Below are positions 6,184 through 25,327 of a DNA stretch of 64,000 bases, piece by piece. This DNA is from Alphaproteobacteria bacterium. Lineage in GTDB: Bacteria; Pseudomonadota; Alphaproteobacteria; SMXQ01. The stretch spans positions 1 through 64,000 of the forward strand of contig WHSO01000009.1 of NCBI GenBank assembly GCA_009380075.1, in the 5' to 3' direction. The notes beneath the pieces were generated by a model, which saw only the letters and a list, made by a program, of their open reading frames with translations, was not told where the DNA came from and did not search any database. The translations under genes and the position numbers were made by a program. The first letter of the stretch is position 1, and each line of letters opens with the position of its first letter.

Positions 6184-6260
6184 GCGCCCTTAGCTCAGTT
6201 GGATAGAGCACGAGCCTTCTAAGCTCGGGGTCGCAGGTTCGAATCCTGTAGGGCGCGCCA
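6184..6260 (+). tRNA. tRNA-Arg (UCU anticodon), 3' half supplied by the integrated element
   Basis: The acceptor stem GCGCCCT pairs with AGGGCGC, followed by G and an encoded CCA. The anticodon stem CGAGC/GCTCG encloses the loop CTTCTAA, giving anticodon TCT at 6218-6220. The segment from 6216 onward recurs almost exactly at 25283-25327, so this tRNA was the attachment site and its present 3' end came with the element. The T-stem now contains a G-U pair (T at 6249) where the displaced copy has C (25316). The tRNA should still be functional. Confidence 0.97.
6216..6260 (+). repeat. attL: direct repeat of the tRNA-Arg 3' half
   Basis: Begins with CTTCTAAGCTCGGGG and ends with GGGCGCGCCA. It is identical to 25283-25327 except for T at 6249 versus C at 25316. 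It starts in the anticodon loop, a common crossover site for tRNA-targeting tyrosine integrases. The base before the repeat differs (C at 6215, T at 25282), which fixes the left limit. Confidence 0.93.
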
Positions 6261-6400
6261 GCTTTTCCAAGTACTTAGCCAAAACGGTCTGAACCGGGAT
6301 GATTGCTTTTCTACCACCGGGCTACCACCGTGTGGAATTTCCTTCACTCGTTGCCCCCGTGCTCTACTGGCATACCAATTCCGAACGAGCGGAGGGCGGC

Positions 6401-6754
6401 ATGAGGCGCACGAACCACAACATGGGTCACCGGCGGTCCCCGCACGATCTCCTGGCGCTGCACAAGGCCAGGGAGGACGGCAGGCTGACCTACGTATCCG
6501 ACAGGCCCTGTCCGAAGAACCATGAACCGACATTACGCTACGTCAAGAGCGGGAGGTGCACCGTCTGCAACCGTGACCAGGCAGGCGCGAGCAAGCGGCG
6601 GGCGTACAGTCGGAGGAATGTCGGTGGGCCTGTTTTCGAGCCGCTCAAACTCATTGCGGGCCCGTGGAATCCGGACTGGGGGCAGTTCGAGGACGACCGT
6701 AGGGCATCGAAGAAAGAGTCTAGGTGGCGCGAGTGGCGGAGGGACGCGGCATGA
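6401..6754 (+). CDS. Small zinc-ribbon-like phage protein, function unknown
   Basis: A 117-residue basic protein. A Cys/His pattern CPKNHEP followed by RCTVCNRD (about residues 37-59) looks like the small zinc-binding module at the N-terminus of many phage HNH or homing endonucleases. No HNH catalytic motif follows, so an endonuclease role is not supported. I chose the ATG at 6401 because GGAGG sits just upstream; an in-frame ATG at 6299 lacks a ribosome site. The stop overlaps the next gene (ATGA). It is the first gene inside attL. It may be a DNA-binding regulator, but that is only inference. Confidence 0.6.
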   Translation: MRRTNHNMGHRRSPHDLLALHKAREDGRLTYVSDRPCPKNHEPTLRYVKSGRCTVCNRDQAGASKRRAYSRRNVGGPVFEPLKLIAGPWNPDWGQFEDDRRASKKESRWREWRRDAA

Positions 6755-7065
6755 AGCGGGCGGCAATGAACCGGCTCAAGGGGCATCCCGACAAGGGCCT
6801 GTTCTGCCACTACGACCGATGGCTTGAGGACCGGACGCCCTACCGTGCCCGCCGTGTCCTCCGCTGCCGAGCGCGCACCATCGAGGGGCTATGGCTCAAG
6901 GCCAATGTCGGCTGGTACATGCTGGCCGGGGATGAGTCCTGCGACGGCCGTGACCTGTCCACCCTCGGGCCTGTCAACGTGCTGGGGGCCGTCATGGGCG
7001 ACGTGGGGAGGCTCGCTGCCGCGTCCCTGTCCTCGGTGCCCTACAGTCACAACAGACTGCCCTAG
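6751..7065 (+). CDS. Hypothetical protein, second gene inside attL
   Basis: A 104-residue protein I do not recognise. The N-terminal half is basic (Arg/Lys/Trp rich, containing CHYDRWLEDRTPYRARR) and the C-terminal half is more neutral and Gly/Ser rich. There are no membrane segments. It overlaps the preceding zinc-ribbon-like gene by 4 bp, and a GGAGGGA sits upstream, so the pair is co-translated. A GC-rich hairpin follows 18 bp after the stop. The overlap and ribosome site support it being real. Confidence 0.5.
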   Translation: MKRAAMNRLKGHPDKGLFCHYDRWLEDRTPYRARRVLRCRARTIEGLWLKANVGWYMLAGDESCDGRDLSTLGPVNVLGAVMGDVGRLAAASLSSVPYSHNRLP

Positions 7066-7083
7066 CGCCTTACGCCCTGACTT

Positions 7084-7119
7084 GGGGGCGGTTCCTTCGG
7101 GGGCCGTCCCCTTCCTTTT
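7084..7119 (+). terminator. Probable intrinsic terminator after the first two element genes
   Basis: An 8-bp stem GGGGGCGG/CCGTCCCC with one G-U pair, whose inner bases can extend pairing, is followed by TTCCTTTT. It lies 18 bp after the 6751-7065 gene. The stretch 7120-7327 is extremely C/G-rich and holds no gene I can support. Confidence 0.55.
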
Positions 7120-7741: not shown

Positions 7742-7804
7742 CGTGAAGCCCCCCGACCGTGCCGAAATTGGAAGTAAAGCGCCCAAACCGCCTAGATTTT
7801 ACGC

Positions 7805-8284
7805 ATGAAAACGCTGACCGATGAAGGGCTAAAGCCCGCCCACGAGAAATTCGCCGTCCTTCTCGCGAAGGGCCTCAACCAAGCGGACGCCTACCGCGGG
7901 AGCCACAACTGCGACGGTCTGACCAACCAGCGCATAGGCGAGCGCGCCTCGAAACTGGCGGCGAGGGGGCCAATCAAGGCAAGAGTCCGCGCCCTTCTCC
8001 GTCAGGCAAAAGTTTCGGACCTCGATTCGGTCGGTCAGGCATTCAAGGACATCCTCAAGGACATCGAAGAGGCGCGTCAGGCAAAGAACTGGACGGCGGT
8101 GGCGCAAATGTCCCGCCTTCGGGTCCAGTGCCACGGGATGATTCTCGACAAGGGCATGATCCTGTCGCCAACCGCCGACATGACGGACGCCCAACTCATT
8201 ACGAGGATCGCGGGCGGGGATGAGGAATTAGCGGCCCGGATCAAGTTTATCTTGGGGCCGGGCGAAGATGAATTCCGGCAGTAG
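7805..8284 (+). CDS. Phage terminase small subunit-like DNA-binding protein
   Basis: A 159-residue protein whose N-terminal half resembles small terminase subunits: PAHEKFAVLLAKGLNQADAY is the usual helix before a helix-turn-helix, then IGERASKLAARGPIKARV and a long helical segment. Small terminases recognise the packaging site and load DNA onto the large subunit. No large terminase gene follows; the next gene is tail-like, after an 11-bp gap containing TAGGAGG. Lone terS genes are a classic feature of phage-inducible islands that redirect a helper's packaging. Another helix-turn-helix protein of similar shape is possible. Confidence 0.55.
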   Translation: MKTLTDEGLKPAHEKFAVLLAKGLNQADAYRGSHNCDGLTNQRIGERASKLAARGPIKARVRALLRQAKVSDLDSVGQAFKDILKDIEEARQAKNWTAVAQMSRLRVQCHGMILDKGMILSPTADMTDAQLITRIAGGDEELAARIKFILGPGEDEFRQ

Positions 8285-8295
8285 GAGGCCGTTCC

Positions 8296-8703
8296 GTGGA
8301 TAGAAACCTTATGGGGAACATAAACCCGAAATCTCTCAAACCCGCAACGCAAGCGGAAATCGAGGCGGAAACCGAGGAAAAATTTCCCGACGCGGCCGGG
8401 CTCAAATATCACCCCGGCGTGGTGAAGGCATGGGCCAGGTGGACCGAAGTAACCACCACGGCCTTGGCAGATAGCTACGGGGTTACTTCCGTGACCGATA
8501 ACGGGACCGGGGCAACAACTGTCAACCTGTCCATCACGCTCAGTAGCAGCAATGCTTGCGCGGTGTATTCGCACAGCGCGGCTAGCCAAGCCGGCAGGGT
8601 TTCGGCCATTGGAACGACAAGCGTTTCAACCAATCATGGCACCACCGGAGTTACGACGACGGACGCCTCTATCTGCTCTCTGGTTGTCATGGGAGATATC
8701 TGA
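8296..8703 (+). CDS. Phage tail-fibre/receptor-binding-like structural protein
   Basis: A 135-residue protein. After a charged N-terminus comes a motif common in phage tail and virion-associated proteins: PGVVKAWARW, then ADSYGVTSVTDNGTGATTVN, then a Ser/Thr-rich beta-strand-like tail. The GTG at 8296 is the likely start because TAGGAGG lies 7 nt upstream. The stop overlaps the next ATG (TGATG). It is probably a short trimerising fibre tip or a structural appendage. The Ser/Thr/Ala-rich composition contrasts with the neighbours. No chaperone or peptidase domain is present. Confidence 0.55.
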   Translation: MDRNLMGNINPKSLKPATQAEIEAETEEKFPDAAGLKYHPGVVKAWARWTEVTTTALADSYGVTSVTDNGTGATTVNLSITLSSSNACAVYSHSAASQAGRVSAIGTTSVSTNHGTTGVTTTDASICSLVVMGDI

Positions 8704-9125
8704 TGAAGGTTGCATTCAAGCGCGCCGATGGCGGGGTGAGCATCACCGAAGTCACGGACATGGACATGGGCCGTGTCGAGTTCGAGAAGTGGAAAACGTC
8801 AGCGGTCATCGCAAACCCCGAATGGCTCCCGGCAACGGTTGAAACGATTTCCAATCTTCCGTCCGACAAGGAGTTCCGCGACGCTTGGGAACACGTCAAC
8901 GGCGATGTTGTCGAAAATCTTTCCAAGGCGGCGGGGATACAGGCCATCCGAATCAGCGAAGCCAAGGCAGCGAAGGAAAAAGAGTTGCTGGTGCGCGAGG
9001 CAGGCGGAGAGGACGTGACCGCAGAGAAGGCACAGGTGCAGGCCGTTGATCCTCTATCGGTACGCAACGCGAAGAACATTGACGAACTCAAATCTTCTTT
9101 GCCCACCGCTCTGAAACGCTCCTGA
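8703..9125 (+). CDS. Possible tail-fibre assembly chaperone-like protein
   Basis: A 140-residue, largely helical, acidic protein. Its middle (DKEFRDAWEHVNGD, then VENLSKAAGIQAIRISEAKA, then KEKELL) resembles the conserved C-terminal part of phage tail-fibre assembly or tail-chaperone proteins, which read FR.AW followed by an A..IRI.EA-type helix. It starts inside the stop of the tail-fibre-like gene, the usual position for a fibre chaperone. I give the assignment as tentative; a search against known tail chaperone families would settle it. Confidence 0.4.
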   Translation: MKVAFKRADGGVSITEVTDMDMGRVEFEKWKTSAVIANPEWLPATVETISNLPSDKEFRDAWEHVNGDVVENLSKAAGIQAIRISEAKAAKEKELLVREAGGEDVTAEKAQVQAVDPLSVRNAKNIDELKSSLPTALKRS

Positions 9126-9441: not shown

Positions 9442-9448
9442 GAGGACC

Positions 9449-9981: not shown

Positions 9982-9995
9982 ACGGCGGAGTGACC

Positions 9996-11269: not shown

Positions 11270-11908
11270 CTACTCAGACGATGGCGCCTGTTGGAGCTTA
11301 TCAACGAGGCGTCGCAAAGCGCTAATAAGCTCTTTAACACTGCCGCCCTGTTGCCGGATGATCGAACTGAATTGTTTGCGGTGAGTGAGTGGCATACTCA
11401 CACCTTCGACGTGGAGGTCCACAGCCTTGAAACTGTCGTCGGTAGGCCGCAACTGCATTTGTAATGCGACTTGAGTTCCATCGGACTGTCGGATCACGCC
11501 ATCAACGATGGTGTCCCCGTTAGGGCGTTTTGTCTGCTTGGTCATCTTCACTTGGACGCTACTGTAACGCATGAAAAGGCCGGCGTAGTTATGGGCGACA
11601 TAGACCCGGTATATACGCTTGAACTCTCTAAATTCTTCGGCTGTGGCCCGTGATGCATAAGGGCCGAGAACAAATCTGCTGACAGCGTTAACGTCGAATG
11701 TCGTATCGATCATCTTCTGCATATGCTCGACGCGCTGGGGGGCTGCTAAGCCCTTATCAGTTAGCTCTTTGATTGCATTGTCGGCAGTGCGTTGCGCAAA
11801 GATGAGCCCATCCGCTTGAGCCATAGCTTGGTTCATGGAGAATCCGAAGACGAACGCCATTCCGAGAATCAAAGACTTGGTAGGGGATACCTTGGTCCAG
11901 TGCATCAA
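11270..11908 (-). CDS. MlaC-like periplasmic phospholipid-binding protein
   Basis: A 212-residue protein with a signal peptide (about residues 10-30, cleavage near AMAQA) and the MlaC/Ttg2D domain. Family features include MIDTTFDVNAVSRFVLGPYA, FREFKRIYRVYVAHNYA and the late segment VDLHVEGVSMPLTHRKQFSSII. MlaC-type proteins shuttle phospholipids between outer and inner membranes as part of the Mla system. No other mla gene is nearby. Its presence inside an integrated phage element is unusual and suggests envelope-modifying cargo or a captured host gene. The length fits the family. Confidence 0.75.
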   Translation of the reverse strand: MMHWTKVSPTKSLILGMAFVFGFSMNQAMAQADGLIFAQRTADNAIKELTDKGLAAPQRVEHMQKMIDTTFDVNAVSRFVLGPYASRATAEEFREFKRIYRVYVAHNYAGLFMRYSSVQVKMTKQTKRPNGDTIVDGVIRQSDGTQVALQMQLRPTDDSFKAVDLHVEGVSMPLTHRKQFSSIIRQQGGSVKELISALRRLVDKLQQAPSSE

Positions 11909-12285
11909 GTGACCTCATCCGTGCAGGCGCCGCCGAACGCCCATGAAGACCAGCAAAGCCTCATTTCACTAAAATTGGGTTACTAGCCGATTATTGGTTG
12001 GCACAAACTCCGCCTGATGCGATCAGCAAGTGACCTTTGGGATCCAAGCAACTAAAATTCGAATTAAAGACAAGCCTACGGCGCGGCACAAGAGCCGGCC
12101 GCAGGCACAGCGCAGAGATTCCATTAACGACTCGCGGCGATACTGTCCCGTGCCGGCGCGCCGGCGGCGGGATGACTGTGACTTGGCCGGTTGCGGTCGT
12201 GCGGATTCCCTGTCCGCGGCTTGGGGTGCTGTCGCGCCCCTGCCCCCGCCGCCCCGCGGGGCGGCGGCTATGGGGTCATTCAGGA
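11909..12285. other. Gene-free region with a large GC-rich hairpin
   Basis: About 377 bp without a supported gene, between the MlaC-like gene and the leftward nuclease operon. It contains a 22-nt perfect palindrome at 12246-12267 centred on CCCCGCGGGG. This lies 18 bp downstream (minus strand) of the small frame ending at 12286 and could act as a transcription stop, though it has no T tract. The left part (about 11960-12080) is AT-richer and may hold the promoter of the MlaC-like gene. Confidence 0.45.
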
Positions 12286-12676: not shown

Positions 12677-13309
12677 TTACCGCCTTGATCGCCTCCACCC
12701 CGCAGCCTGGGCGTCGGCCTCTGTGCAAAACCACCGCTCGCCCTTCGATGGGTCGATGCGAGTTTGACTATAAAATTGACCGCTGGGCAGGTGGTAGATT
12801 CGGTCCCCGCGTGAGCTGATATTGCCCTTAATCCGGCATGCCGTGGAAGCACTTTCAGACTCGGTGGCCCGCTTTTTCGTAGAGGCTTGGTCCTGCCGCC
12901 ACTCCCACGGCTTCTGAAACGTTCCGGCCCACACCCCGCGGATCGCCGCCCGAGCCTCGGCTTCCTCGGCAGCATAGCGCCCCTTGGAATACTGGCGGTA
13001 GTCCAGGGCCCAGCCCTGGCGCACCAGCCAGCCGTTCAGGTCTTCGCCGCCGAGGTAACAGACAGCCACGATCCGGCGGTAACGGTCCCGGTCACGCTCC
13101 TGGCAGTGGATTGGCCGGCGCCTGATCTTGTCGGCTAGGGCAAGCGCCGCCTGCTGGCCGCATCGCCACGCCTTCCCGCCCCGGTCGCACGTCTGCCGGC
13201 TTTCGGGGGTATCGCCGTCGATGATGGAGGCTTGGCCCACAAGCGCCCAAGACGGATTTGCCAGCGTCACGCCGAGCGGGATTAGAAGCGCGACTAGCCT
13301 CTTTCTCAC
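12677..13309 (-). CDS. Thermonuclease (SNase-like) family protein with a deleted active-site segment
   Basis: A 210-residue secreted protein. Signal peptide about residues 1-22 (ending PSWAL), then an SNase-like core: [13 protein letters not shown] (29-41), [17 protein letters not shown] and the [21 protein letters not shown] region. The C-terminal domain with [20 protein letters not shown] and [17 protein letters not shown] is a familiar partner of these nucleases. In the family, about 15 residues carrying the catalytic Arg and a Ca-binding Asp normally separate DGDT from PES; here they are absent without a frameshift. The protein is probably not an active nuclease. Its stop is 13 bp before the next leftward gene. 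Confidence 0.75.
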
Positions 13310-14247
13310 GACGGAGCGGCTCCTGACTCGCCCCCTGCCTTGGCGAGCTGTGTCTCGTTTCTGTCAGTTAGGGTCTTGGCACGGTCAATAATCGATGCAG
13401 CGTGATTCAATGCCTCGTCATCCGCGCTGGCGCCTTCAAGCATTTCTCGCAACTCTCGGAGGATGTTGTCCTCTAACTCGTCCAGCAGGTAGTGATGGCC
13501 GACTGCCCCATGCTGGTCGATATAGCTTGCCTGGTGTGGGAGCGCCGTTTTCAGCAGGTCATTCGCGTACTTGTCATTGAGCAGGTTTTTGGAATCCTCG
13601 AGCCCCATTTCAAGCGCCTTCAACCTCGTGTAAGCGTGGAGCAGCACTGCCAGGTACGCTGAAAAGTACGCCCATGCCATTGGCGACAGAAACGGTCGTT
13701 CCTCTCTAGCCGCAATGTCCGGCAACTTACCGGCGGGTAGAACCTTACCGATAATCTCAAATACTTTACGAAATTGCGGATTCTTTGCCGCCTCATCCGC
13801 GGCGACATCGAACTTGATTACGGCCATTTGCCCTGATATTGCCTTCAGGGCTCCTAGACGGACTACGTCGCGCCACACTCCCAGCATGCCCTCGAATTTG
13901 TCCTCTGGGACGGCGGCCATCTTTTGGGCGCGGCTCGACAGCTTCTTGTCGATACCCGCTTCGGCAAGGGTGGGAGTGCGGTTCTCTTTTGGAACCGCAC
14001 TTGTGCCTATGCCCCGCGCACCGGTATTTAGTCCAACGGTTTCTTTCTGCGCGGTTATAAGCTCCCCCAGCTTGCGCTCGGCTCGCATGCGAATCTCGGC
14101 CGCGTCGATTTCCAGTTGCCGGTTCTTCGCCTGGTGGGCGTAGCAGCGCATAGCGTCCGCCTTGTCGCGAACGTCCTTCACTTCGTCCACCGATTTGGCC
14201 TCGGCTATGGCGCGGCAGGCCGCATCGTATTTGACCAGTTGGCTCAT
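13306..14247 (-). CDS. Phage protein of unknown function with an adenine-methyltransferase-associated N-terminal domain
   Basis: A 313-residue soluble protein. The N-terminal 120 residues ([34 protein letters not shown], then [20 protein letters not shown]) match a helical domain found in many phage and plasmid proteins, often ahead of DNA methyltransferase domains. No methyltransferase motif (DPPW or NPPY) is present here, so it is not itself a methylase. The C-terminal half is helical and unrecognised. It overlaps the thermonuclease-like gene by 4 bp and the VRR-NUC gene by 4 bp, forming a tight leftward operon. A DNA-binding or regulatory role is plausible. Confidence 0.6.
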
Positions 14248-14594
14248 GCCGCCCTCGCTCGAATCTTCACACCCCAGGCCTCAAGGGTTTCCTGAACGTC
14301 GAGGATCGAGCGGCAAACCTCTACTGCGGCCCCGGCGTCAGCTATCTGTTCGATGGTGAGCTTCTGTGCGGGGCTCAGGTATCCACCTTCGGCCTTCAGT
14401 TCGATGAACCTTGCCTGACCGCCGACCACAAAGACCAAATCCGGCACCCCGGCCTTGCCGCCGTACTTGATGAACTGGCCGCGCTCCCATTTCGTGCGCT
14501 TGCCCTCGTTCGCGGGGTGGAACCAATACACGTCATCCGGCAGGGCGACGGTGAGGTATTCGGCTACTGAGCGATGGAGGTCGTGTTCGGTCAT
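14244..14594 (-). CDS. VRR-NUC domain nuclease
   Basis: A 116-residue stand-alone VRR-NUC protein. The PD-(D/E)XK-type catalytic motifs are visible: HPANEGKRT, then GGKAGVPDLVFV (with the catalytic Asp) and ARFIELKAEGGYLSPAQ (Glu-Leu-Lys). Stand-alone VRR-NUC proteins are common in phage early regions and are thought to act on branched or replicating DNA. The frame is the usual length. It is followed by a 4-bp overlap with the 313-residue gene. A degraded frame lies immediately upstream. Confidence 0.85.
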   Translation of the reverse strand: MTEHDLHRSVAEYLTVALPDDVYWFHPANEGKRTKWERGQFIKYGGKAGVPDLVFVVGGQARFIELKAEGGYLSPAQKLTIEQIADAGAAVEVCRSILDVQETLEAWGVKIRARAA

Positions 14595-14994: not shown

Positions 14995-15240
14995 ATGCCC
15001 AACCGCGACACCGCCGCCCCTGGCACCGGCACATTTTTCGACACCGAAGGACTGGCGGAATACCTGAGCCTGTCGGAAAGCTACCTGAACCAGATGAGGG
15101 TGCGGGGGGACGGCCCAAAATACCACAAGATTGGCCGGAAAGTGATTTACCGGCTCGCGGACGTTGAGGAATGGCTTGCCCGGCAGGCCCACCGCTCGAC
15201 ATCCGAATACACCGACCCCGAACAGGCCCCGGCAGCCTGA
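14995..15240 (+). CDS. AlpA/excisionase-type helix-turn-helix protein
   Basis: An 81-residue DNA-binding protein with the MerR-like winged helix of AlpA, Xis and similar proteins: FFDTEGLAEYLSLSESYLNQ, then GDGPKYHKIGRKVIYRLADV and EEWLARQ (about residues 14-65). AGGAG sits 8 nt before the ATG. In P4-like satellites AlpA activates the integrase and controls excision. Here it heads the rightward block, divergent from the VRR-NUC operon, so it may govern the switch. No CI-type repressor was found in the element. The DNA-binding assignment is firm; the role is inferred from position. Confidence 0.8.
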   Translation: MPNRDTAAPGTGTFFDTEGLAEYLSLSESYLNQMRVRGDGPKYHKIGRKVIYRLADVEEWLARQAHRSTSEYTDPEQAPAA

Positions 15241-15326: not shown

Positions 15327-15821
15327 ATGACCACCGTAGCAAACTACTTGAAAACCGTCAACTTCAGCCTTGCCGTTTCGGTCGTGGCGAAGATCAAGCC
15401 CGACAGCCCGAAGCCGGAACTGTTTGAATTAGAGGGTGGAACCGTCCTGGCGCGGGTGCTCCCGGTCGAGGATGGCGAAGGCAGATTCGTCGATTCCGTC
15501 GCCTATGCCGACGACGACCCTCACACTTGGTATCTCCAGCGCGACAAAGGAATATTCCTCGGCATCCGGCAGCTCATGGGAGCCAGCGGCATCAGCGTTC
15601 CCATTTTCCCCACCCCCGAAAGCTGGTTTCAGGGTCACGGGTGGGGAATCTGCATCATCAACTGGCGCGTAAAACTTCTTCCGTTTCTCGAAGGGGTGAC
15701 GCTCGACACCGGCCACCTTGATCCGCGCGTTGCCGACATCATGGAGAAGCGCCTCGAATCGAATTGCCGGCGTGACTTCCCCATCATTTCCAGAATGAGG
15801 GAGCCGCTCCATGCCGCGTGA
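15327..15821 (+). CDS. Hypothetical protein upstream of the DUF3631 ATPase
   Basis: A 164-residue soluble protein starting MTTVANYLKTVNFSLAVSVV, rich in Trp and acidic residues in the middle (YADDDPHTWYLQRDKGIF). I do not recognise it. It overlaps the DUF3631 gene by 11 bp and has GAAGGTG upstream, so it is probably translated with it. It may be a replication accessory, but this is only from position. Codon use looks like that of its neighbours. Confidence 0.55.
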   Translation: MTTVANYLKTVNFSLAVSVVAKIKPDSPKPELFELEGGTVLARVLPVEDGEGRFVDSVAYADDDPHTWYLQRDKGIFLGIRQLMGASGISVPIFPTPESWFQGHGWGICIINWRVKLLPFLEGVTLDTGHLDPRVADIMEKRLESNCRRDFPIISRMREPLHAA

Positions 15822-17325
15822 AAACATCTTCCCCGTCTTGAAGGGAACGACCGCCACCGATGTTGAAACCAGGGCCGAGGTACTGGCGAAGCTGACGCCG
15901 CTTCAATACGACATAGCGCGGAGAGACGCAGCAAAGGAATTCAGGATTCCCGTGTCGGCTCTTGACCGGGAGGTGTTCAGGCGCCGGCCGCAAGACGAAA
16001 GCGACGGACAGAAGAACTCGTTATTCAGCGAGCCTGAACCCTGGCCCTTTGAGGTGGGCGGCGCGGAAGTCCTGAATGAAATCGTTGCGGAAATCAGAAA
16101 ATACGTTGTGTTGCCCAGCGCCGCTGCCGATGGAATTGCCCTGTGGCTCCTGCACACGCATGCCATAGACGCGAGCGATATTGCCCCGATCCTGTTCGTG
16201 ACCAGCCCGGCGCCGGCGTGCGGAAAAACAACGGTCCTCGCGCTCGTCGAATCCCTGTCCCGCAAGGCGATATATGCCGCTCATGCCACCACCGCCGCCC
16301 TGTTCCGTCTGGTCGAGGAACACCGCCCGACCGTCATTCTGGACGAGTGCGATACCTACCTTCCGGAGGATAAAGACCTGCGCGGCCTGATCGACAGCGG
16401 CCACGCACTGAACGGGAAATTCCTTCGATGCGACGGGGAGGATAACGCCCCAAGAGCCTTTGGCACCTTCAGCCCGAAGGCTCTTGGTGGAATTGGAGGG
16501 GTCCATGCGACTATCAGCAGCCGCGCCATCACCATCAAATTGCAGCGCAAGGGACCGAACCAGAAAACAGAAAAGCTGCGCCTGAACCGGCGAGGGTATC
16601 TGAACGAGACGAAAGCCAGGGCCATGCGGTGGGCTTTGGACAACATCGACGCCCTGCGCGCAATCACCCCGGCCACCCCCGGCACACTGAGCGACCGCGA
16701 CGAGGACAACTGGACCCCGCTTTGCGCCATCGCGGAGCTTGTCGGCGGCGGCTGGGTGGAGAGAGCCCATCATGCGGCAATGGTGCTTGAGGACATCGAA
16801 GCGGCGCAGAGCATCCAGATCAAGCTGCTTGCCGACATTCAGATCGTGTTCGGGACGAGGGACCGCATTTCATCGAAGGCGCTCGCGGAAGACCTCGCGC
16901 AGATCGAAACGTCGCCCTGGTGCGAATGGAAAAACGAGAAGGCCATCACCCCCCGTCAGATCGCCAATCTCCTGAGCGGTTTCGGTATCTCGCCCGGCTC
17001 GGTTCGGATGCCGGACGGCTCCACCCCCAAGGGCTACCACCTCGAAGCCTTCACGGATTCTTTCTCCCGCTACCTGAATCCGCCGGATGGATCAGTTACA
17101 CCGACACAAGTCGCGGAAATCAAGGCTTTCGACCAGTTTTCGATCCGCCACAAGGGGGAGGTTGTGGCGGATAGAAAAGAGCAAAAAACGGCGGATTTGT
17201 TGGGTTGTGTCGGTGTAACCGATCGAAAACCGTCCATCGGCCCGGAAGAAGAAAATATCGACCTTTCCGAGCAGGAGGCGATCCGGTGGGAAGGCGAAGG
17301 CGGCGCGCTTCGGGGTGAGGAATAA
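15811..17325 (+). CDS. DUF3631 domain ATPase (helicase/primase-like), probable replication protein of the element
   Basis: A 504-residue P-loop ATPase. Walker A is SPAPACGKTT (about residues 132-141). Walker B is PTVILDECDTYLPEDKDLRG (173 onwards). The sensor region GGVHATISSRAITIKLQRKG (about 230-250) is typical of DUF3631, a helicase-like domain found in phages and integrative elements, often linked to primase modules. The N-terminus (1-80) is short and no primase motif is visible. It probably unwinds DNA for replication of the excised element. It overlaps the preceding gene by 11 bp and ends in a stop-start overlap with the next. Confidence 0.8.
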   Translation: MPRENIFPVLKGTTATDVETRAEVLAKLTPLQYDIARRDAAKEFRIPVSALDREVFRRRPQDESDGQKNSLFSEPEPWPFEVGGAEVLNEIVAEIRKYVVLPSAAADGIALWLLHTHAIDASDIAPILFVTSPAPACGKTTVLALVESLSRKAIYAAHATTAALFRLVEEHRPTVILDECDTYLPEDKDLRGLIDSGHALNGKFLRCDGEDNAPRAFGTFSPKALGGIGGVHATISSRAITIKLQRKGPNQKTEKLRLNRRGYLNETKARAMRWALDNIDALRAITPATPGTLSDRDEDNWTPLCAIAELVGGGWVERAHHAAMVLEDIEAAQSIQIKLLADIQIVFGTRDRISSKALAEDLAQIETSPWCEWKNEKAITPRQIANLLSGFGISPGSVRMPDGSTPKGYHLEAFTDSFSRYLNPPDGSVTPTQVAEIKAFDQFSIRHKGEVVADRKEQKTADLLGCVGVTDRKPSIGPEEENIDLSEQEAIRWEGEGGALRGEE

Positions 17326-17582
17326 TGGCCGCCTTCATCTACGTTGACGATATCGCCGGGTGCATCGTCTACGGCAACACCCGTAAAGGCAGCCACGAGT
17401 ATAAAAAACTTATCGAGTACCTTCTGCGGTCGGACTGGTGGCTGAAGGACTGGCCGGTTGTCCGCGAGGGCCGGGAACATGACCGGCAGCACCGACAGAT
17501 GAGCCGTCTTTTGGAGACGGGCCAAATTCGGAGTTTCCGGCAGGGTCATGGTACTATCGGCCATGACGGAGAATCGGGTTGA
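17325..17582 (+). CDS. Hypothetical protein between the ATPase and acetyltransferase genes
   Basis: An 85-residue basic protein starting MAAFIYVDDIAGCIVYGN and rich in His, Arg and Trp later (SDWWLKDWPVVREGREHD). The ATG overlaps the stop of the DUF3631 gene (TAATG) and its own end overlaps the next start, so it is in the coupled chain. In a complete podovirus the packaging and capsid genes would often lie around this point, so this gene may mark a junction. No family recognised. Confidence 0.5.
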   Translation: MAAFIYVDDIAGCIVYGNTRKGSHEYKKLIEYLLRSDWWLKDWPVVREGREHDRQHRQMSRLLETGQIRSFRQGHGTIGHDGESG

Positions 17583-18052
17583 CACACGCCATCGAAGCCA
17601 TTGACTCCGAAGTACATATCCGGCCCGCCACGGACGCGGACTTGCCACGGATCATGGCTCTTGGCAGGCAGTTCTACGAGGCGTCGAATACCCCTGAATT
17701 CCCGTGGGACGATGCGACCTGCATCGAACTTTTGAGGCACATGAGGATTGCCGGAATCCTGATTGTTTCCGAGCATGATGGAGAGGTTTCCGGCGTCATC
17801 GGCGGCCTGCTGACCCCATTTCCCTACGATAAAAACACCATCGTCGCTTCTGAAATGTTCTGGTGGGTCACGCCAGCGGCGCGGAGAGTTGGGTTCCCGT
17901 TGCTTGAAGCGTTCGAGGATGAAGCAAAATTGCGCGGTGCAAGGCTCGGGGCGATGAGCCTCGTACAGGACATGCGTGGCGACCTTTTGACAAAGCTTTA
18001 CCAGCGCCGGGGCTATCGCCTCTACGAGCGCAGCTTCCTGAAGGTGCTGTGA
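17579..18052 (+). CDS. GNAT-family acetyltransferase, phage type
   Basis: A 157-residue GNAT acetyltransferase starting with TTG (GGAG upstream). The N-terminal strand VHIRPATDADLPRIMALGRQ is typical, followed by GEVSGVIGGLL, the acetyl-CoA region FWWVTPAARRVGFPLLEAFE and the C-terminal YQRRGYRLYERSFLKV. This FWWV..ARR..G..LL version is common in podovirus structural modules, next to internal virion proteins. The substrate is unknown. It overlaps the following ejection-like gene by one base (TGATG). Confidence 0.8.
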   Translation: MTHAIEAIDSEVHIRPATDADLPRIMALGRQFYEASNTPEFPWDDATCIELLRHMRIAGILIVSEHDGEVSGVIGGLLTPFPYDKNTIVASEMFWWVTPAARRVGFPLLEAFEDEAKLRGARLGAMSLVQDMRGDLLTKLYQRRGYRLYERSFLKVL

Positions 18053-19020
18053 TGGCCGCACTCAGTTCCATCGCCGCCGGTGCGACCATAGCCGCTGCCG
18101 GCGTTGGTATTGCCGGTGGGCTCAAGACCCTGACGAGCAAGCCGAAGGCCCCGTCCGTTTCTGCGGGAGCCAACCCCGGATCGGTCCTCGGGATAGGGTT
18201 CAATCGCGGCCTTTCCACCCCCGGTTTGATGTTCGAGAAGGGCACCCTGACCCCCACCGGATCGGGCATCGACCTTCGTAACCTCCTTGAACTATTCAGC
18301 GCCGGGGGTACTGGCGTTCCCGGCAGCCTCGCCAGCCTCCGGGCAAAACAGGCGGCGCTTGGCGGGAATATCCCCGCGCTCCGCGCAGGAATACAGGGCC
18401 TGAGGGGTGATTTCTCCAATCTCCGCGCCCAGGTCGTCCCCGGCTTCGGTGCGTTGACCGAGGCCCGCGTGAAGTCGATCAGGGATGCGGCGTCGGAGAG
18501 CATCGGGAACCTTCGGGAGACGATGGCCCGCCGGAATGTCCTTGGATCGAGCTTCGCGACGGATACCGAATCGCGCACGCGCCTCGCTTTCGCGCAGGAG
18601 GAATCCAACGTCCGTGCCGAGGCCAAGGTTGCCGAAATCGGCGCGACGCAACAGCTTATCAGCGACGAGCTTAACACCTACGCGCAGGAGCTTGGCCTGA
18701 CGGAATTCGACGCAAGCCTGCACCAGCAGGACATCTCGAACGCCATCACCCAATCGAACCTCATCATCAACGAACTGACCCGCCAGTTGCAGGAACTCAA
18801 TATCGCGGGCTCGGTCGCCAACGGGGTTGCTTCGGCGGTTGCCAATCAGGGCATGGCGGAAGCAAGGTTGCAGCTTCTTTCCTCCGGCTTGGGGGATCAG
18901 AATTTCACCGCCGGGCTCAAAAGCATTCAGGGAAGCATCGAAGGGCTCGGGGCCGCATTCGGTAACACCTTGCAACAGCAGGCGCGCATCGACGTTGCCT
19001 CACGACCGGATATTTTCTGA
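18052..19020 (+). CDS. Internal virion/DNA-ejection protein-like (first of three)
   Basis: A 322-residue protein. A small hydrophobic Ala/Gly segment at the N-terminus (AALSSIAAGATIAAAGVGIA) is followed by long helical regions rich in Ala, Gln and Glu (LAFAQEESNVRAEAKVAEIG; then QLISDELNTYAQELGLTEFD). The combination of a membrane-inserting tip and coiled-coil-like body, right after a phage GNAT gene, fits the smallest podovirus ejection protein. The ATG at 18052 overlaps the GNAT stop. The assignment is from architecture and neighbours; sequence similarity in this class is weak. Confidence 0.5.
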   Translation: MAALSSIAAGATIAAAGVGIAGGLKTLTSKPKAPSVSAGANPGSVLGIGFNRGLSTPGLMFEKGTLTPTGSGIDLRNLLELFSAGGTGVPGSLASLRAKQAALGGNIPALRAGIQGLRGDFSNLRAQVVPGFGALTEARVKSIRDAASESIGNLRETMARRNVLGSSFATDTESRTRLAFAQEESNVRAEAKVAEIGATQQLISDELNTYAQELGLTEFDASLHQQDISNAITQSNLIINELTRQLQELNIAGSVANGVASAVANQGMAEARLQLLSSGLGDQNFTAGLKSIQGSIEGLGAAFGNTLQQQARIDVASRPDIF

Positions 19021-20333
19021 TGGCTGACTCCATTCCTTCCGCCGCCTCCGGTCTCGCGCTTGGCGAGGCCATGCTGACCGCCCAGCGCAAGCAGCGGAAC
19101 GACACCCAGCGCATCACGCTTGAGGGCATGGCGCTGGACGCCAAGGTCGCGGACCAGAACCGGACATTTGGACTCAAGCGGCAGGAAGCGGCGTTCAATG
19201 AACTGAAAGCCTCCTTCGAGCGCATGGGAAAGTACGGCGAGGCCGCGCAGGCGATGGGGCCGAACTTCAAGACCGGCTCCCCCCTGGACAAAGCCATCGA
19301 CCGCGAAAAGAACATCCTCGCGAAAATCGCGCCGCTGGTGGGCTATGACCCCAACGCGGCGCAAGCGGCGGCGGCATGGGCGCGCTCAAGAGCGAACATC
19401 CCGGCGAAGCCCGTTGCGGTCCCCTCGACCTCGCGCCTTGTCGACCCGTTCACCGGGAAAGAAGTCGTTTCCGCGAACGAGGCCCGCATTCTCTCGCCCG
19501 ATGAAGTGAAGGGCCTCGGCCTGCCGACAAACACGGTTGTCCAGCGCAAGGGCAACGGCGATTTTTCGATCCAGTTCGCGCCGGAGAACACCCCGACCCT
19601 GCGGGCGCAGAAAATCGCCTCCCTGACCGGAAGGGGGCTGGATCAGACCACCGCCGAGGACATCGTTGACGGCAACATTGACATCGAAATCGTGCCGACG
19701 ACCGGCAGGGCCAGGTTGGTCAATAAGCTGACGCAACAGGTGACGGAAATTCCCATCGGGGGTGCAAAGGAAACTCCGGCAGCCGGTGAGCAGACGACAC
19801 CCCCGCCGACCGAACAGCAGCCGGGGCCGGGACAGGCTTTCGGGGCGCTGAACTGGCTGAAGGATATTTCCACCGACACGCTGGGACAGGTATTCGAGGA
19901 AATGCAATTCCCCGAGGTGCGGGCGGCGCGGACGCAAATGAAATTCCTTCGGGAAGAAATCATCAATGCGTTGTCAAAGTCGGGCCGTCCCCCCGTTGTG
20001 GAACAGGCCCGCATCCTCGAAACCCTGCCGAGCCTCGGCCCCGTGGAGTCCATCGGCGGCGCGGTTGTCGCGCTCAAGACGACGCGGGGACTTCTGGAAC
20101 AGGTCAAGGCCGACGACGAGGTGTTTTCCGACGACGCCAACCAGCCCGACAAGCTCCGTCTGGAAGCCTTCGAGCGCGTCCGAAGGATCAACCGCGTTCT
20201 CAAGCAGATGGAAGTCCTCGACACGATAGGGACGGCCCCCGCCGGCGAAAACGTGCCCGAGGGTGTTGATCCCGAGTTGTGGAAATTCCTGACGCCCGAG
20301 CAACAGAAGCTATGGCAGACACCTTCACCGTAG
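19020..20333 (+). CDS. Internal virion/DNA-ejection protein-like (second of three)
   Basis: A 437-residue protein starting MADSIPSAASGLALGEAMLT, with a helical charged N-terminal region (LKRQEAAFNELKASFERMGK), a central Pro/Thr-rich linker (about residues 240-275, with ETPAAGEQTTPPPTEQQPGP) and a helical C-terminus. The stop-start overlaps (TGATG before, 22 bp after) keep it in the coupled chain. It has no enzymatic motif I can see. In podoviruses the middle internal virion protein has this sort of elongated, low-complexity architecture. Alternative: a scaffold or tail protein. Confidence 0.45.
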   Translation: MADSIPSAASGLALGEAMLTAQRKQRNDTQRITLEGMALDAKVADQNRTFGLKRQEAAFNELKASFERMGKYGEAAQAMGPNFKTGSPLDKAIDREKNILAKIAPLVGYDPNAAQAAAAWARSRANIPAKPVAVPSTSRLVDPFTGKEVVSANEARILSPDEVKGLGLPTNTVVQRKGNGDFSIQFAPENTPTLRAQKIASLTGRGLDQTTAEDIVDGNIDIEIVPTTGRARLVNKLTQQVTEIPIGGAKETPAAGEQTTPPPTEQQPGPGQAFGALNWLKDISTDTLGQVFEEMQFPEVRAARTQMKFLREEIINALSKSGRPPVVEQARILETLPSLGPVESIGGAVVALKTTRGLLEQVKADDEVFSDDANQPDKLRLEAFERVRRINRVLKQMEVLDTIGTAPAGENVPEGVDPELWKFLTPEQQKLWQTPSP

Positions 20334-22927
20334 AGCAACAGAAGGCGCTCGCGCTTGCCGAAGCGAAGCGGAAGGTTGCGGCGCGTCCCGGTGTCGTGGG
20401 GGAATTCGGGCAGGGCGCGAATGTCGGTATCTCCGAAGTCGCCGGGGCACCCGTTGACCTTGTGAACCTCCTCGGCGGAATTCTCGACGCGGGCCGGGAA
20501 GCCGTTGGTATCCCCTCAACCGGGATCAACGTGAAGATCCCCGGCGGCAGCCAGGACGTGCAAACGCTGTTCTCCAAGATCGGGCTTGCTCCGGAACCGG
20601 GGAAGGAACCCGATACGCTCCCGTTCGAGATCGGGCGCTTCACTGGCTCGACGGCGGCGGCGGTGCTGCCCGTTGGAGCGGCGGCGAAGGGGGCTACGGC
20701 TGTCAAGGCGACGGCAGGCCCCGGCAACGCCCTTACCAATTTCGTGCAGGACGTGGCACGTACCGCCGTCAAGGCACCCGGACGGTTCATCGCCGGGGAA
20801 GTGACGGCGGCGGCGACGGCAGCGACGGGTGGGCATATCGCGCGCGAAAGATTCCCCGACAGTCGCGCGGCGCAGACCATCGGAGAAATCATCGGGGGGT
20901 TGTCACCGGCAGCGGCGGGCGCGGCCGCGCGGGTTTCCCTGACCGTCACCGGGGCGAGGTTCGCCCGGCGCATGGTACGTCCCTTCACGCGCACGGGGGC
21001 GAGGGGACGGGCCGAGGGACGGGTTGCCGACGTGACCCGCGACCCGGAAGCGGCCATGCGGGGATTGACCACGGACGAAACCCTTCCCGGTCTCACTCCC
21101 GCGCAGAAAACCGGCGACGAGGGATTGTTGTCCCTTGAAAGATCGGTGATCGAATCGAGCGAACAGCTTAAAGGGCAGTCGGACGAGCAGATCGCCAACA
21201 TGACACAGGTAATTCGCGAATCGCTTTCCCGTCCCGGCGAGGGCGTGTCCCCGGAACGGACGGCGCAGGCAATGGAAGCCGCGCAGGGGCACTTGCGGGG
21301 CCTGCTGGATACCCGCTTGAGGGTTGCCGCCCGCATCGCGGATGAGAAGATTGCGGCGCTCGGTCCCAATGCGACGCGGGCCGACGCCAACCTGATTGCA
21401 CGGGACGAACTGACCAAGGCCCTGACCGACGCGCGGACGCAGGAACGGGAACTGTGGCGGGCGGTCCCGATGGAGGCCGAAACCTCGACCCGGAAAGCAA
21501 AGTCCGCCTACCAGCGTCTTTTGAAAGAAACGCCTCGGGCGCAGCAAAGCGATATTCCCGCCGTTGCGAGAGAGTTGCTTGAGGCCGAATCGAATACCGC
21601 CCTTGGCGACGTTGACAGGGTGCGGGAGTTGCACGGCCTCCGAAGCAAGCTGCTTGAGGACGCCCGCAACGCCCGTTCGACAGGGCAGCGCAACAAGGCC
21701 CGTATTGCCGATGAGATTGCCGACGCCATCCTTGATGACCTGGGCGCGGCGGCGGGGAACGTGAAGGGCGAGACAGGGGAAACCCTGCGGGCGGCGCTCA
21801 ACTATTCGGCCGACCTCAACGGACGCTTCACGCGCGGCCCAGTGGGAAGGCTTCTCGGCACCGCACGGCAGGGCGGGGCGGCGACACCCCTTGAACTCAC
21901 CCTGGAACGCACGGTAGGGCGCGGCGGTCCCGTGGGCCGTGTCGAATCCCAAGCCCTTCAAGACGCGGTTTCCAGAACGGGCGACCTTCCCGCCCTTCGG
22001 GGTTCGGTAGAGGATTTCCTGAAAGACGAATTCCAGCGCAACGCGGTTCGGAACGGCGAGATCAGCCCGGCGGCGGCAAGGGTGTTCGTCAACAAGTATC
22101 AGGATACCCTTGAGGACTTCCCCGACCTTCGGCGGCAATTCGATCAGGCCATCGAATCGGGCAACGCGGAGACCGTTGCACGGAAACGGGCCGAAGGTGT
22201 TGCCGCGCGGTTGAACGATCCGAAGGTATCGAGATCGGCCATCTTCATTCAGCACCCCCCGGAACAGGTGATCCAGCAGATTGCCAAGGTGCGCCGTCCC
22301 GGCGACGCCATGAAGGAACTGGTCAAGCTGGCGGATCGCGACACAACCGGGGACGCCTTGAAGGGGATCAAGACGACATTCACCGATTACCTGATGAATC
22401 AGGCGTCAACCAAGACCATGACCGCCGAGGGCCAATCCGTAATATCCGGCTTCGCGCTTCGCCGGTTGCTCGAAAGCGGTCCAACCAGGAAGATGGCCGA
22501 TGCGCTGTTTTCCCCCGACGAACGGCGCTTCCTGCAAATCGTCGCCAACACGGCGGAAAAGGTCGAGAAGGCCGTCGCTGTCCGTCCGCGCCCCGAGGGG
22601 ATCATTGCCGACCGTCCCGCGATGCTAACCAATGTGATTGCCGGAGTGACGGGCGCGCAACTCGGGCGCAAGGTTGCCGAAGCCACCGGAGGGGGCACGG
22701 TGCAGACGCCGGGCATCATGGCCGGGATATTCCGCCGCCTGACCGCGAGCCGCATTCAAGACCCGGCCCGCCGGTTGTTGATCGACGCGGTGCAGGATGA
22801 AGATTTGTTCAAGGCGCTGATTGCGAAAACCACGGACCCGAAACAGCAGGAATTCGCACGGCGCAAGCTCAATGCGTGGGCGGTTGCTGTCATCCGTGAC
22901 GCGGGCGGCGAAGACACCGAAGAATGA
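20312..22927 (+). CDS. Large internal virion/DNA-ejection protein-like (third of three)
   Basis: An 871-residue, mostly helical protein starting MADTFTVEQQKALALAEAKR and overlapping the previous gene by 22 bp. Residues 120-220 have Ala/Gly-rich, weakly hydrophobic stretches that could insert in membranes. The segment TPAQKTGDEGLLSLERSV is a motif I associate with large phage ejection-type proteins. Long coiled-coil-like regions follow (EETPRAQQ through the C-terminus). It is the largest gene of the element. I see no transglycosylase motif. Podovirus ejection proteins of 800-1300 residues have this composition and position. Confidence 0.5.
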   Translation: MADTFTVEQQKALALAEAKRKVAARPGVVGEFGQGANVGISEVAGAPVDLVNLLGGILDAGREAVGIPSTGINVKIPGGSQDVQTLFSKIGLAPEPGKEPDTLPFEIGRFTGSTAAAVLPVGAAAKGATAVKATAGPGNALTNFVQDVARTAVKAPGRFIAGEVTAAATAATGGHIARERFPDSRAAQTIGEIIGGLSPAAAGAAARVSLTVTGARFARRMVRPFTRTGARGRAEGRVADVTRDPEAAMRGLTTDETLPGLTPAQKTGDEGLLSLERSVIESSEQLKGQSDEQIANMTQVIRESLSRPGEGVSPERTAQAMEAAQGHLRGLLDTRLRVAARIADEKIAALGPNATRADANLIARDELTKALTDARTQERELWRAVPMEAETSTRKAKSAYQRLLKETPRAQQSDIPAVARELLEAESNTALGDVDRVRELHGLRSKLLEDARNARSTGQRNKARIADEIADAILDDLGAAAGNVKGETGETLRAALNYSADLNGRFTRGPVGRLLGTARQGGAATPLELTLERTVGRGGPVGRVESQALQDAVSRTGDLPALRGSVEDFLKDEFQRNAVRNGEISPAAARVFVNKYQDTLEDFPDLRRQFDQAIESGNAETVARKRAEGVAARLNDPKVSRSAIFIQHPPEQVIQQIAKVRRPGDAMKELVKLADRDTTGDALKGIKTTFTDYLMNQASTKTMTAEGQSVISGFALRRLLESGPTRKMADALFSPDERRFLQIVANTAEKVEKAVAVRPRPEGIIADRPAMLTNVIAGVTGAQLGRKVAEATGGGTVQTPGIMAGIFRRLTASRIQDPARRLLIDAVQDEDLFKALIAKTTDPKQQEFARRKLNAWAVAVIRDAGGEDTEE

Positions 22928-23211
22928 ACCGCGCCGACAAATTCCTGTTGGAAAAATTCGATCAATCCATCAGCCGGTTCATGATCTACGCCCGCGCGAT
23001 GGCGGAATGCCGCAAGGGCGGGGATACTTCCTTGTTGGAATCTACCATCCGGCGCGAACGCGAAATCCTCATGGAAATCGAAAGGCTGCTCGGCCTCCCC
23101 GCTGACGGGGCGCTGGCCGACACGCTCATGGAACAAGCCCTTGCGGGGGAACAGGTCAAATCCATAGCCCCGAGGCTGTCCCCGGTCCCCGAGGACTACA
23201 GGCTCAACTAG
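22924..23211 (+). CDS. Small helical hypothetical protein at the end of the coupled chain
   Basis: A 95-residue helical protein starting MNRADKFLLEKFDQSISRFM, whose ATG overlaps the stop of the large ejection-like gene (ATGA). The C-terminus is Pro-rich (APRLSPVPEDYRLN). It is convergent with the gene at 23208. In phage ejection modules a small accessory protein sometimes follows the large one, but I cannot name it. Confidence 0.55.
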   Translation: MNRADKFLLEKFDQSISRFMIYARAMAECRKGGDTSLLESTIRREREILMEIERLLGLPADGALADTLMEQALAGEQVKSIAPRLSPVPEDYRLN

Positions 23212-23873
23212 TATTCCCCGGCTATCTTCGCCCGCTGGATCACCGATTGCGCCCAGCGCCGGAACGACTTTGGCGGGGATTCCACCCCATCGCGATATTG
23301 GATGACGGCGGCGATTAGGCGGCAGAATTCGCCTTTAGGGGCATGGGTAGGTTTCTTCCCCCTCACGCGGCTGCGATAGAGATCGTAAAGGGCCTCGGTG
23401 AATTTTATATGCGATGGCCCGCGCGTGTTGGCCGACACGCTCTTTGCCGCGCCCTCGGTGTAGGTTTCCCGTCCTATCTCGGCCCGGTCCCTGACCTTCG
23501 CGGCATATTGCAACAGGGAGGGGCGGAGGTTTTCCGAAAGGCTCTGAATCTCCCGTCGCTCCGGGTCGCCTCCGTTGTTCTGGAACGGAACATCGGTGGC
23601 CGAGCCGAGCCATAACGCAGGGGCGCGTCCCGCCATGTATTTCTTGAGATCGGCGGCGAAGCCTTCGGCCTGGTCCGCAATCTTTATCATCGCGTCGTAG
23701 GCGGCGCGGTTGGTCATCGTTTTCTCGTCGCGCTCCAGATCATCCAAGAGTCTGATGGCCGATTTGATCCGCCCGAGGGTGTCGTTTTCCCTTTCGTCGC
23801 CGCCGTTGGACTTGAGGATGAGAAGGGCGGTAGCAAGGCCGCACATTTTCACTTCGTCATTCAGGATCGCCAC
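23208..23873 (-). CDS. Hypothetical protein next to the integrase
   Basis: A 221-residue soluble helical protein, probably starting with GTG (MAILNDEVKMCGLATALLIL). The N-terminus is mildly hydrophobic, the rest charged (KSAIRLLDDLERDEKTMTNR). The C-terminal half (RGPSHIKFTEALYDLYRSRV, then FRRWAQSVIQRAKIAG) looks DNA-binding-like but is not a family I know. It starts 3 bp after the integrase stop on the same strand, so both share a leftward message. It could be a directionality or maintenance factor. Confidence 0.5.
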   Translation of the reverse strand: MAILNDEVKMCGLATALLILKSNGGDERENDTLGRIKSAIRLLDDLERDEKTMTNRAAYDAMIKIADQAEGFAADLKKYMAGRAPALWLGSATDVPFQNNGGDPERREIQSLSENLRPSLLQYAAKVRDRAEIGRETYTEGAAKSVSANTRGPSHIKFTEALYDLYRSRVRGKKPTHAPKGEFCRLIAAVIQYRDGVESPPKSFRRWAQSVIQRAKIAGEY

Positions 23874-23876
23874 GGC

Positions 23877-25145
23877 TCACCCCGCCAGCTTGACCACGTT
23901 ATCGGCCTTGGCCGTCCCGGTGACGACCGCGAGGACGTGCCTTTCCCACGCCTCAAGGGCGCGCCTCATGTCGTCGGCATAGGTAAAGCGGTTATAGATC
24001 GCCGCCACGCCCTTGATGGAGCCCGACTTGTGGTTAAGCACCTTGTCCGCGACGTGGGGCGAGATACCGAGCCGCGCCATTCCGGTTGTCGTCGTCCTCC
24101 GCAAATCGTGCAGGGTCCATGACGGCATTTCCTTTGCCTTCTCGACCTCCTTGCGGCGGGCCTTCAATATCCCGGCATCAATCGCCTTCTTGGCCTTGGA
24201 GAACCCGGAGACGGGGGACGTGCCGCTCGTGGTGAGGATGTAGGGGCAGAACGTCTTGCCCGACTTGATCCGGGGTTGCGCCTCGATCACCGCAAGGGCG
24301 GTTTCCGTCAACGGGACTTCATGGGCCGTCTTGTTCTTCGTCCTGTCGGCCGGCAGGGTCCACAGCTTCTTGTCGCTATCGACCTCGGCCCATTTCATCG
24401 CCGCAACTTCGGTTCGACGCTGGCCGGTAAGGACCAGCAGCTTGACCAGCGCCGCCCAGGGGGTGCCGACCGCTTCCGCCGCCTTCCATACTTCCAACAG
24501 TTCATCATCGCTCAACACGCGCTCGCGTCCCTGTGAGGGGGCGGCGGGGCGTGACAGGCTTTCGCAGGGGTTGGACTCCGCGTGTCCGCGTTCGACGCAC
24601 CACCGAAAGAACATCTTGGCGCAGATCAGGGCGCGGTTGGCGGCGATGGGGGTCTCCCCGGCCATGTCGTCCAGTATCCCCGCTATGTCGGCGCGGGACA
24701 CGTCGCAGGGGCGCTTTGTGCCTATGACGGGGACGAAACGCTGTTTCAGCAGCCGTTCGGTTGACTGCCAGCTTCGCGGGGCCTTCCGCTTGGCGTGAAG
24801 GGTAACGAAACTGTCCACCAGTTCCGAAACCGTCTTGCCGTCCTTCTGGCGCTCGGTCGCCTTGTCGCGGGCGGGATCGTCGCCATCGGCCACCAGCCCA
24901 AGGATGCGCTTGGCTTCGGTGCGGGCCGTGTCGGCGGTCCAAGGGGAACCGTGGGGGCCTATCCCGTACCATCGCTTGGGAGCGGTCCTGCCGCCCGGAA
25001 ACGGGCGATAGACGACGACGTAGTTTTTCCGAAGGGACTTTCCGGTGCCTGACACGCGGACGCCGAAGCCCTTGAGCTGGTCGTCCCAAAGGGGACTTGA
25101 GTTGGCCTTGAGCGCGTCAACGGCCTTTTTTGTGATCCTTGGCAA
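23877..25145 (-). CDS. int: Tyrosine site-specific recombinase (P4-type integrase)
   Basis: A 422-residue integrase. The N-terminal arm-type domain (about 1-100) includes GFGVRVSGTGKSLRKNYVVV, the core-binding domain is about 105-195, and the catalytic domain runs 205-405. Catalytic residues are Arg243 (TGQRRTEVA), the Lys near 270-272, His346 and Arg349 (LHDLRR), His372 (LNHKSG) and Tyr384 (AAIYNRF). It is complete and likely active. It starts about 140 bp from attR, the standard arrangement for tRNA-targeting integrases of this type. It should catalyse integration and excision at the 45-bp repeats. Confidence 0.93.
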   Translation of the reverse strand: MPRITKKAVDALKANSSPLWDDQLKGFGVRVSGTGKSLRKNYVVVYRPFPGGRTAPKRWYGIGPHGSPWTADTARTEAKRILGLVADGDDPARDKATERQKDGKTVSELVDSFVTLHAKRKAPRSWQSTERLLKQRFVPVIGTKRPCDVSRADIAGILDDMAGETPIAANRALICAKMFFRWCVERGHAESNPCESLSRPAAPSQGRERVLSDDELLEVWKAAEAVGTPWAALVKLLVLTGQRRTEVAAMKWAEVDSDKKLWTLPADRTKNKTAHEVPLTETALAVIEAQPRIKSGKTFCPYILTTSGTSPVSGFSKAKKAIDAGILKARRKEVEKAKEMPSWTLHDLRRTTTTGMARLGISPHVADKVLNHKSGSIKGVAAIYNRFTYADDMRRALEAWERHVLAVVTGTAKADNVVKLAG

Positions 25146-25282
25146 TCTCGCCTCCTGCTACCACTGCGCTACCACGGGATGGGAAACCCCGTGCAACAAG
25201 GTACGATCAAAGAGCCTTGGAAAGCAAGGAATTCGGCGCAGGATGAAACACCGTGCAAGCCGGTGAAAGCACGTATCCATAT

Positions 25283-25327
25283 CTTCTAAGCTCGGGGTCG
25301 CAGGTTCGAATCCTGCAGGGCGCGCCA
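25283..25327 (+). repeat. attR: displaced 3' half of tRNA-Arg
   Basis: Matches 6216-6260 at 44 of 45 positions. It carries the anticodon loop, T-arm, acceptor 3' strand and CCA, but no 5' half, so it is not a tRNA gene. Its T-stem (GCAGG/CCTGC) is fully Watson-Crick and is probably the original host sequence. Confidence 0.93.

Follow-up and report, generated by a model that had tools for sequence, protein, structure and literature searches.

Known satellites of bacteriophages reshape heads, redirect packaging or bring heads of their own. The subject here is a 19,067-bp integrated element in a 64,000-nucleotide stretch of DNA from an alphaproteobacterium (positions 1 to 64,000 of contig WHSO01000009.1, assembly GCA_009380075.1, lineage SMXQ01; the whole stretch is termed the window). 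The element has a cassette resembling the DNA-ejection genes of podoviruses and no recognised head genes, and it is probably a satellite akin to the phage-inducible chromosomal islands (PICIs) that uses the heads and tails of an infecting podovirus while supplying its own ejection proteins. The capsid-forming PICIs (cf-PICIs) of Alqurainy 2023 (cited in PMC11773190) reportedly make their heads and steal tails. The window element would be like them as a satellite with structural genes of its own and the remainder stolen from a helper; it differs in having neither an own capsid with packaging module nor head and tail tube genes, and in carrying only the ejection cassette.

The core genes of PICIs and the satellite families have been described (PMC11773190, PMC10803314). 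The window element shares with PICIs an integrase, a regulator similar to AlpA, a length within 10-20 kb and, as in most of them, a lack of head genes (PMC11773190); its primase/helicase-like replication gene and its TerS-like gene are possible further likenesses. It departs from them in that the replication gene is of the DUF3631 type, and in the podoviral source of its phage genes. Phage-inducible chromosomal minimalist islands (PICMIs) of Vibrionaceae are likewise small, of marine origin and equipped with integrase, AlpA and primase; they leave the particle unaltered apart from its DNA (PMC10803314), whereas the window element encodes proteins expected inside the virion. Alphaproteobacterial podoviruses like phiGT1 and KLEP18-1 hold the same gene cluster, termed GNAT-A-B-C below, after their nozzle gene but, as complete phages, also have TerL, portal and capsid. 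Charybdis elements (PMC12324425) were weighed as well and dismissed, as they measure ~4.6 kb, have an archaeal host and carry other genes. The open-access literature searched, with subscription papers outside the search, describes no PICI with podovirus ejection proteins and no satellite with ejection, internal virion or injection proteins, in keeping with a preliminary description of this sequence that expected such a satellite to be new.

The Element and Its Ejection Cassette

Two 50-bp direct repeats, 94% identical, flank the element. The left repeat (6216-6265, forward strand) falls within the 3′ end of the gene for tRNA-Arg(tct) at 6184-6260, and the right repeat (25283-25332, forward strand) is a tRNA-Arg 3′ end. 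The preliminary description had recognised this unit of 19 kb bounded by tRNA repeats and placed it at 6216-25327; its left end stands and its right end is corrected to 25332. It had also noted an intact integrase, which is a tyrosine integrase of 422 aa (23877-25145, reverse strand) adjoining the right repeat and matching phrog_1 (6e-63), PF00589, PF13356 and PF22022. An own integrase with attachment repeats is a PICI trait, as is the putative HTH_17/AlpA-like excisionase-regulator at 14995-15240 (forward strand; phrog_66, 6e-9; PF12728). In all 20 element genes measured, GC content peaks at the third codon position, the pattern that coding sequence should show here.

A run of coupled genes on the forward strand forms the core of the element: a DUF3631 primase/helicase-like replication protein (15811-17325), an 85-aa linker gene (17325-17582), a GNAT protein (17579-18052), genes A (18049-19020), B (19020-20333) and C (20312-22927), and a 95-aa gene (22924-23211). 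Consecutive genes overlap or abut, with coupling read from start/stop overlaps; the linker is tied to the DUF3631 and GNAT genes by TAATG and TTGA overlaps, and the 95-aa gene overlaps C. Because of this continuity, the cassette is wired to the replication gene. The replication protein matches PF12307 (2.6e-39), has a homologue in L106, one of the backbone elements described below (36%, 4e-86), and is partly homologous to a recorded 'DNA primase'; it differs from the usual PICI pri-rep type.

On sequence comparison, C, and weakly B, are homologues of podovirus genes in the DNA-ejection slot. C is an 871-aa protein predicted to be mostly helical; its homologue in Paracoccus podovirus KLEP18-1 is gp21, a 'structural protein' (30%, E 4e-42). 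Relatives of C, podovirus structural/DNA-transfer proteins, occur in 3 phage records and ~35 IMG/VR contigs, where they stand mostly directly after B, and homologues of B lie directly upstream of C in phages and satellites alike. Single-sequence scans of the genome and viral contigs with C were empty, and alignment-based searches were needed. The KLEP18-1 gene order is nozzle, gp17, acetyltransferase gp18, gp19, gp20 and gp21, with gp19-gp21 recorded as structural proteins. This order equals that of Sulfitobacter podovirus phiGT1 (tubular tail B, GNAT as 'head assembly protein', structural protein, two internal virion/injection proteins), whose record calls these genes internal virion/injection proteins and reports weak similarity of the second injection protein to P22 gp16. 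Upstream of B-C, the IMG/VR contigs that are long enough have a nozzle gene and often a GNAT gene, and several show nozzle, GNAT, (A), B and C; in phage L069, a phrog_598 'DNA ejection' gene lies two genes upstream of B. Relatives of the window's GNAT protein (phrog_1249, 1.5e-16) appear in 56 phage records, among them that of Pam1, whose gp11 (37%) directly precedes the needle gene. Homology and position together fit its assignment to the podovirus assembly/ejection cluster, and gene A, the first of the three large genes, fits by position. The window thus has the GNAT-A-B-C order of a podovirus ejection cassette with homologous B and C, and the earlier claim of a GNAT enzyme plus three coupled ejection-like genes is upheld by homology for C, B (more weakly) and GNAT, and by place for A.

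PHROG and Pfam scans of 20 element proteins revealed neither TerL nor portal nor capsid, as the preliminary description had stated, and the virion gene set is incomplete as in PICIs; the TerL, portal, capsid and tail tube set of a complete temperate podovirus is not there. The null extends to the whole window genome for podovirus portal (phrog_156) and major head/capsid (phrog_334), two families beyond which other phage head families exist. Both were also empty in the whole satellite-bearing genomes G391, G392, G393, G518 and G533; as positive controls, the portal model finds genomes G019 and G394 and the head model finds G019. These results argue against a resident podovirus of this type as helper, and therefore an infecting phage would have to serve.

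The boundaries and the head-gene searches both bear on the proposal that the genes are a domesticated host function, or a gene-transfer-agent-like part, unrelated to any satellite. Intact genes kept by the host would suit it. The tRNA repeats at both ends, the integrase and the AlpA-like regulator do not; moreover, the cassette is missing from relatives' genomes, with no integrase-free conservation at one locus across the genus, and there are no head genes anywhere for a gene transfer agent of this type. This proposal seems to us highly improbable.

A more serious rival is a temperate podovirus whose head and packaging genes were deleted, the ejection genes being left by chance. G019 contains a complete prophage whose syntenic gene is weakly but significantly homologous to B (27%, E ~1e-10) and in which TerL, portal and major head genes precede B and C; podovirus prophages with these B-C genes therefore do exist in complete form. 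That a single copy of the window element is known and that no helper is seen in the window genome also agree with deletion. However, all genes of the element are intact, and its replication gene joins the cassette by perfect translational coupling. In a comparison of related genomes for capsid genes, advised at the outset, capsid-less relatives recur, and the complete G019 prophage has none of the window's non-cassette genes (tblastn). Deletion would not predict that the same outcome recurs on a conserved backbone with swapped cassettes, as set out below, and we consider a gutted prophage unlikely.

Recurrence on a Shared Backbone

Capsid-less elements with podovirus ejection cassettes occur in at least 7 Rhodobacteraceae genomes, from marine bacteria. 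An integrase-AlpA-replication-TerS-like backbone is common to eight other Rhodobacteraceae elements, in which no head genes are recognised and the podovirus ejection genes fall into at least three kinds. Histidinibacterium (L046), Citreimonas (L047) and Shimia (L048) were found by profile scans to hold C. Of 395 genomes sampled around G391, 5 have this gene, two of which are among the genomes of these three loci. The order integrase, HTH regulator, small conserved gene, replication/prim-pol gene, B and C is common to L046, L047, L048 and the elements of G518 (L057/L058) and G533 (L059/L060). B and C are on the opposite strand in G518, where a host-type alkaline phosphatase gene directly follows B. 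Past the G533 satellite, two more integrase genes (L060, 3090-6627) are perhaps a tandem element array.

The small conserved gene, 'PVYCASPVRISD' (alignment A5), serves as a marker of the backbone; it is present in 16 of the 395 genomes, and none was found in IMG/VR. Four of these five elements have a DUF5681 gene. A TerS fold was sought in its product, with no match in the PDB by sequence, and the predicted model is poor (pLDDT 63). An 8.7-kb unannotated 'Bacteriophage sp.' record from human faeces (L113, MT836812.1) has a DUF5681 gene at 435-872 that is 52% identical to those of the satellites, and it matches no other protein of the satellite library. When 63 proteins of the five satellite loci (alignment A10) were compared with PHROGs, the matches were integrases, excisionases, primase and topoisomerase, with no head family among the best 25 of 32 families. 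One of the 63 proteins matches phrog_6287, BstA abortive infection (1.9e-20); a satellite may carry a defence gene. For L046 and L048, which sit close to contig ends, the far boundary is unseen, a gap that the whole-genome head-gene searches partly cover. Eight further marker loci were taken up, with L104 left out of the cassette comparison and L105 ending at a contig edge. Among these relatives, only L106 has clear flanking direct repeats (18-bp, tRNA-Thr), and a tRNA-like 3′ end was recognised by eye left of the L046 integrase.

The window element has in common with this satellite set C, the DUF3631 gene, an SNase gene (48% with L102) and the same integrase superfamily. The marker gene 'PVYCASPVRISD' and DUF5681, which together delimit the Rhodobacteraceae family, are not part of it. 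The element is therefore best regarded as an independent satellite that follows the strategy of this family.

Exchange of Cassettes

The genome G391 (Histidinibacterium aquaticum) contains both L046 and L101, which are related satellites but differ in their ejection cassettes. Across the small-gene/PC4/replication/DUF5681 stretch the two have 83% identity over 2418 bp, and beyond the cassette they are 80% identical over 396 bp. Between these stretches, L046 carries B and C and L101 a phiGT1_19-type protein, with no cross-match between the cassettes. To judge from these alignments, the difference is a cassette exchange between conserved flanks. L102, like L101, has large proteins homologous to the phiGT1_19 injection protein. 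A protein of L102 (10952-12886) that matches phrog_21712, 'major head protein', aligns with phiGT1_19, and the head label may be a mis-annotation. The L108 cassette is different again, with a KLEP18-1 gp19-type protein (phrog_4287, 'DNA ejection protein'), a 640-aa lytic-domain protein and a 747-aa protein that resembles the syntenic gene of Rhizobium phage RHph_I3_18.

In the maximum-likelihood tree of C, the window copy pairs with that of IMG/VR phage L076 (36% identity, support 100/100), where the gene order is tail protein, GNAT, A, B and C. Satellite copies are interspersed among phage copies, and at least 4 changes are needed. A single satellite clade, the group having been set by gene content ahead of the tree, is rejected by the approximately unbiased test (p = 9e-7), and therefore cassettes were acquired from phages on several occasions. 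When C genes are compared in pairs, most of the divergence falls on third codon positions (L047-L048: 0.34, 0.32 and 0.64 by position), as expected for a gene under selection. A class-wide profile search of 385 genomes gave no further C gene, and it also missed the distant G019 copy. Of the two readings first offered for the window, a gutted prophage and a self-injecting satellite, the recurrence, the cassette swap and the several acquisitions of C favour the satellite.

Repeated swapping is also compatible with an arms race, in which the ejection proteins, produced in the host, would enter helper virions to spoil or exclude competing phages (superinfection exclusion or helper interference) and would not deliver the satellite. 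Such proteins are packed into the head and work in the envelope, and foreign versions could poison particles; moreover, the backbone elements L103, L106 and L107 have no recognised ejection gene, and the cassette is thus not always needed for mobility. The retention of full-length, whole cassettes, including the lytic-domain protein of L108 and the GNAT of the window, would exceed the needs of interference, which we hold to be quite improbable.

Several observations weigh against a self-injecting satellite, the three backbone elements just named among them. For the window, the reading is partly an analogy, because one copy is known and only part of the Rhodobacteraceae backbone is common: the element is missing from its own genus and family, a second window-like element was absent from the class-wide sample of 385 genomes, and tblastn of the window proteins gave no match to the small marker gene or DUF5681. 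Searches of most relatives found no attachment repeats, and no helper, excised form or particle was found for the window element. The ejection role of B and C is deduced from homology and position. Gene A has no detectable sequence relative, a profile comparison with KLEP18-1 gp19 also being without match. C has nothing significant in the PDB by sequence or by fold, and its predicted fold gives low TM-scores against viral models, mostly of uncharacterised phage proteins, two with an LT_GEWL domain; this is the outcome for C of the structure-based check proposed earlier.

Packaging, Fibre and Cargo Genes

The lone TerS-like gene of the preliminary description (7805-8284, forward strand, 159 aa) has matches to phrog_51 (4e-5) and phrog_1595 (3e-4) that agree with it. 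The protein is also similar to TerS of phages NrS-1, 1N2-2 and PSTCR3 and to Streptococcus satellite phage genes (E 6e-4 to 1e-2), and its top match in the PDB is the Pam5 small terminase (E 0.13, non-significant by itself). A packaging-redirection gene is found in some PICIs, and these weak but consistent matches suggest one here. The tail-fibre-like genes claimed earlier are represented by 8296-8703 (forward strand; phrog_11355 tail fibre, 1.6e-8), a family that also follows C in L069. At its stop starts a 140-aa protein, a possible fibre partner (8703-9125, forward strand; weak PHROG match, 0.09).

The earlier gene inventory holds, with additions in the middle of the element, namely MlaC-like, SNase and VRR-NUC genes. 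The MlaC-like gene (11270-11908, reverse strand; PF05494, 2.6e-31) is probably host-derived cargo; its region (11270-11983) has 84% DNA identity over ~700 bp to locus C158 of the same genome, and for this reason it looks host-captured. The SNase-domain thermonuclease, also putative cargo (12677-13309, reverse strand; PF00565; 48% identity to the L102 SNase), is one of the small SNase-domain nucleases that recur in or near satellites L102, L103, L106, L111 and L047. Next lie a 313-aa protein of unassigned function (13306-14247, reverse strand; phrog_33995) and a VRR-NUC nuclease (14244-14594, reverse strand; PHROG and Pfam scans). Beside the integrase, a 221-aa protein (23208-23873, reverse strand) has no PHROG or Pfam family match. 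Elsewhere in the window, positions 55000-60000 have a GC content of ~0.54 against 0.65 around, suggesting another acquired region.

Proposed Mechanism and Implications

As a PICI-like satellite, the window element would be excised by its own integrase together with the AlpA-like regulator and replicated by the DUF3631 protein. On infection by a podovirus, the TerS-like protein would direct the helper TerL to package satellite DNA into the helper head, and satellite-made GNAT, A, B and C would be loaded into the head together with this DNA. Upon delivery, the cassette proteins would form a channel through the periplasm. Ejection proteins of its own may free the satellite from the ejection set of the helper, or may retarget or mark the particles.

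The evidence tilts slightly towards a class of satellites with an exchangeable ejection cassette that decides which cells a helper's head delivers satellite DNA into. If true, DNA entry, and perhaps host range, would be under the parasite's control. The swapped cassettes on constant backbones, two of them in one bacterium, would then be a natural set for testing the specificity of podovirus ejection.

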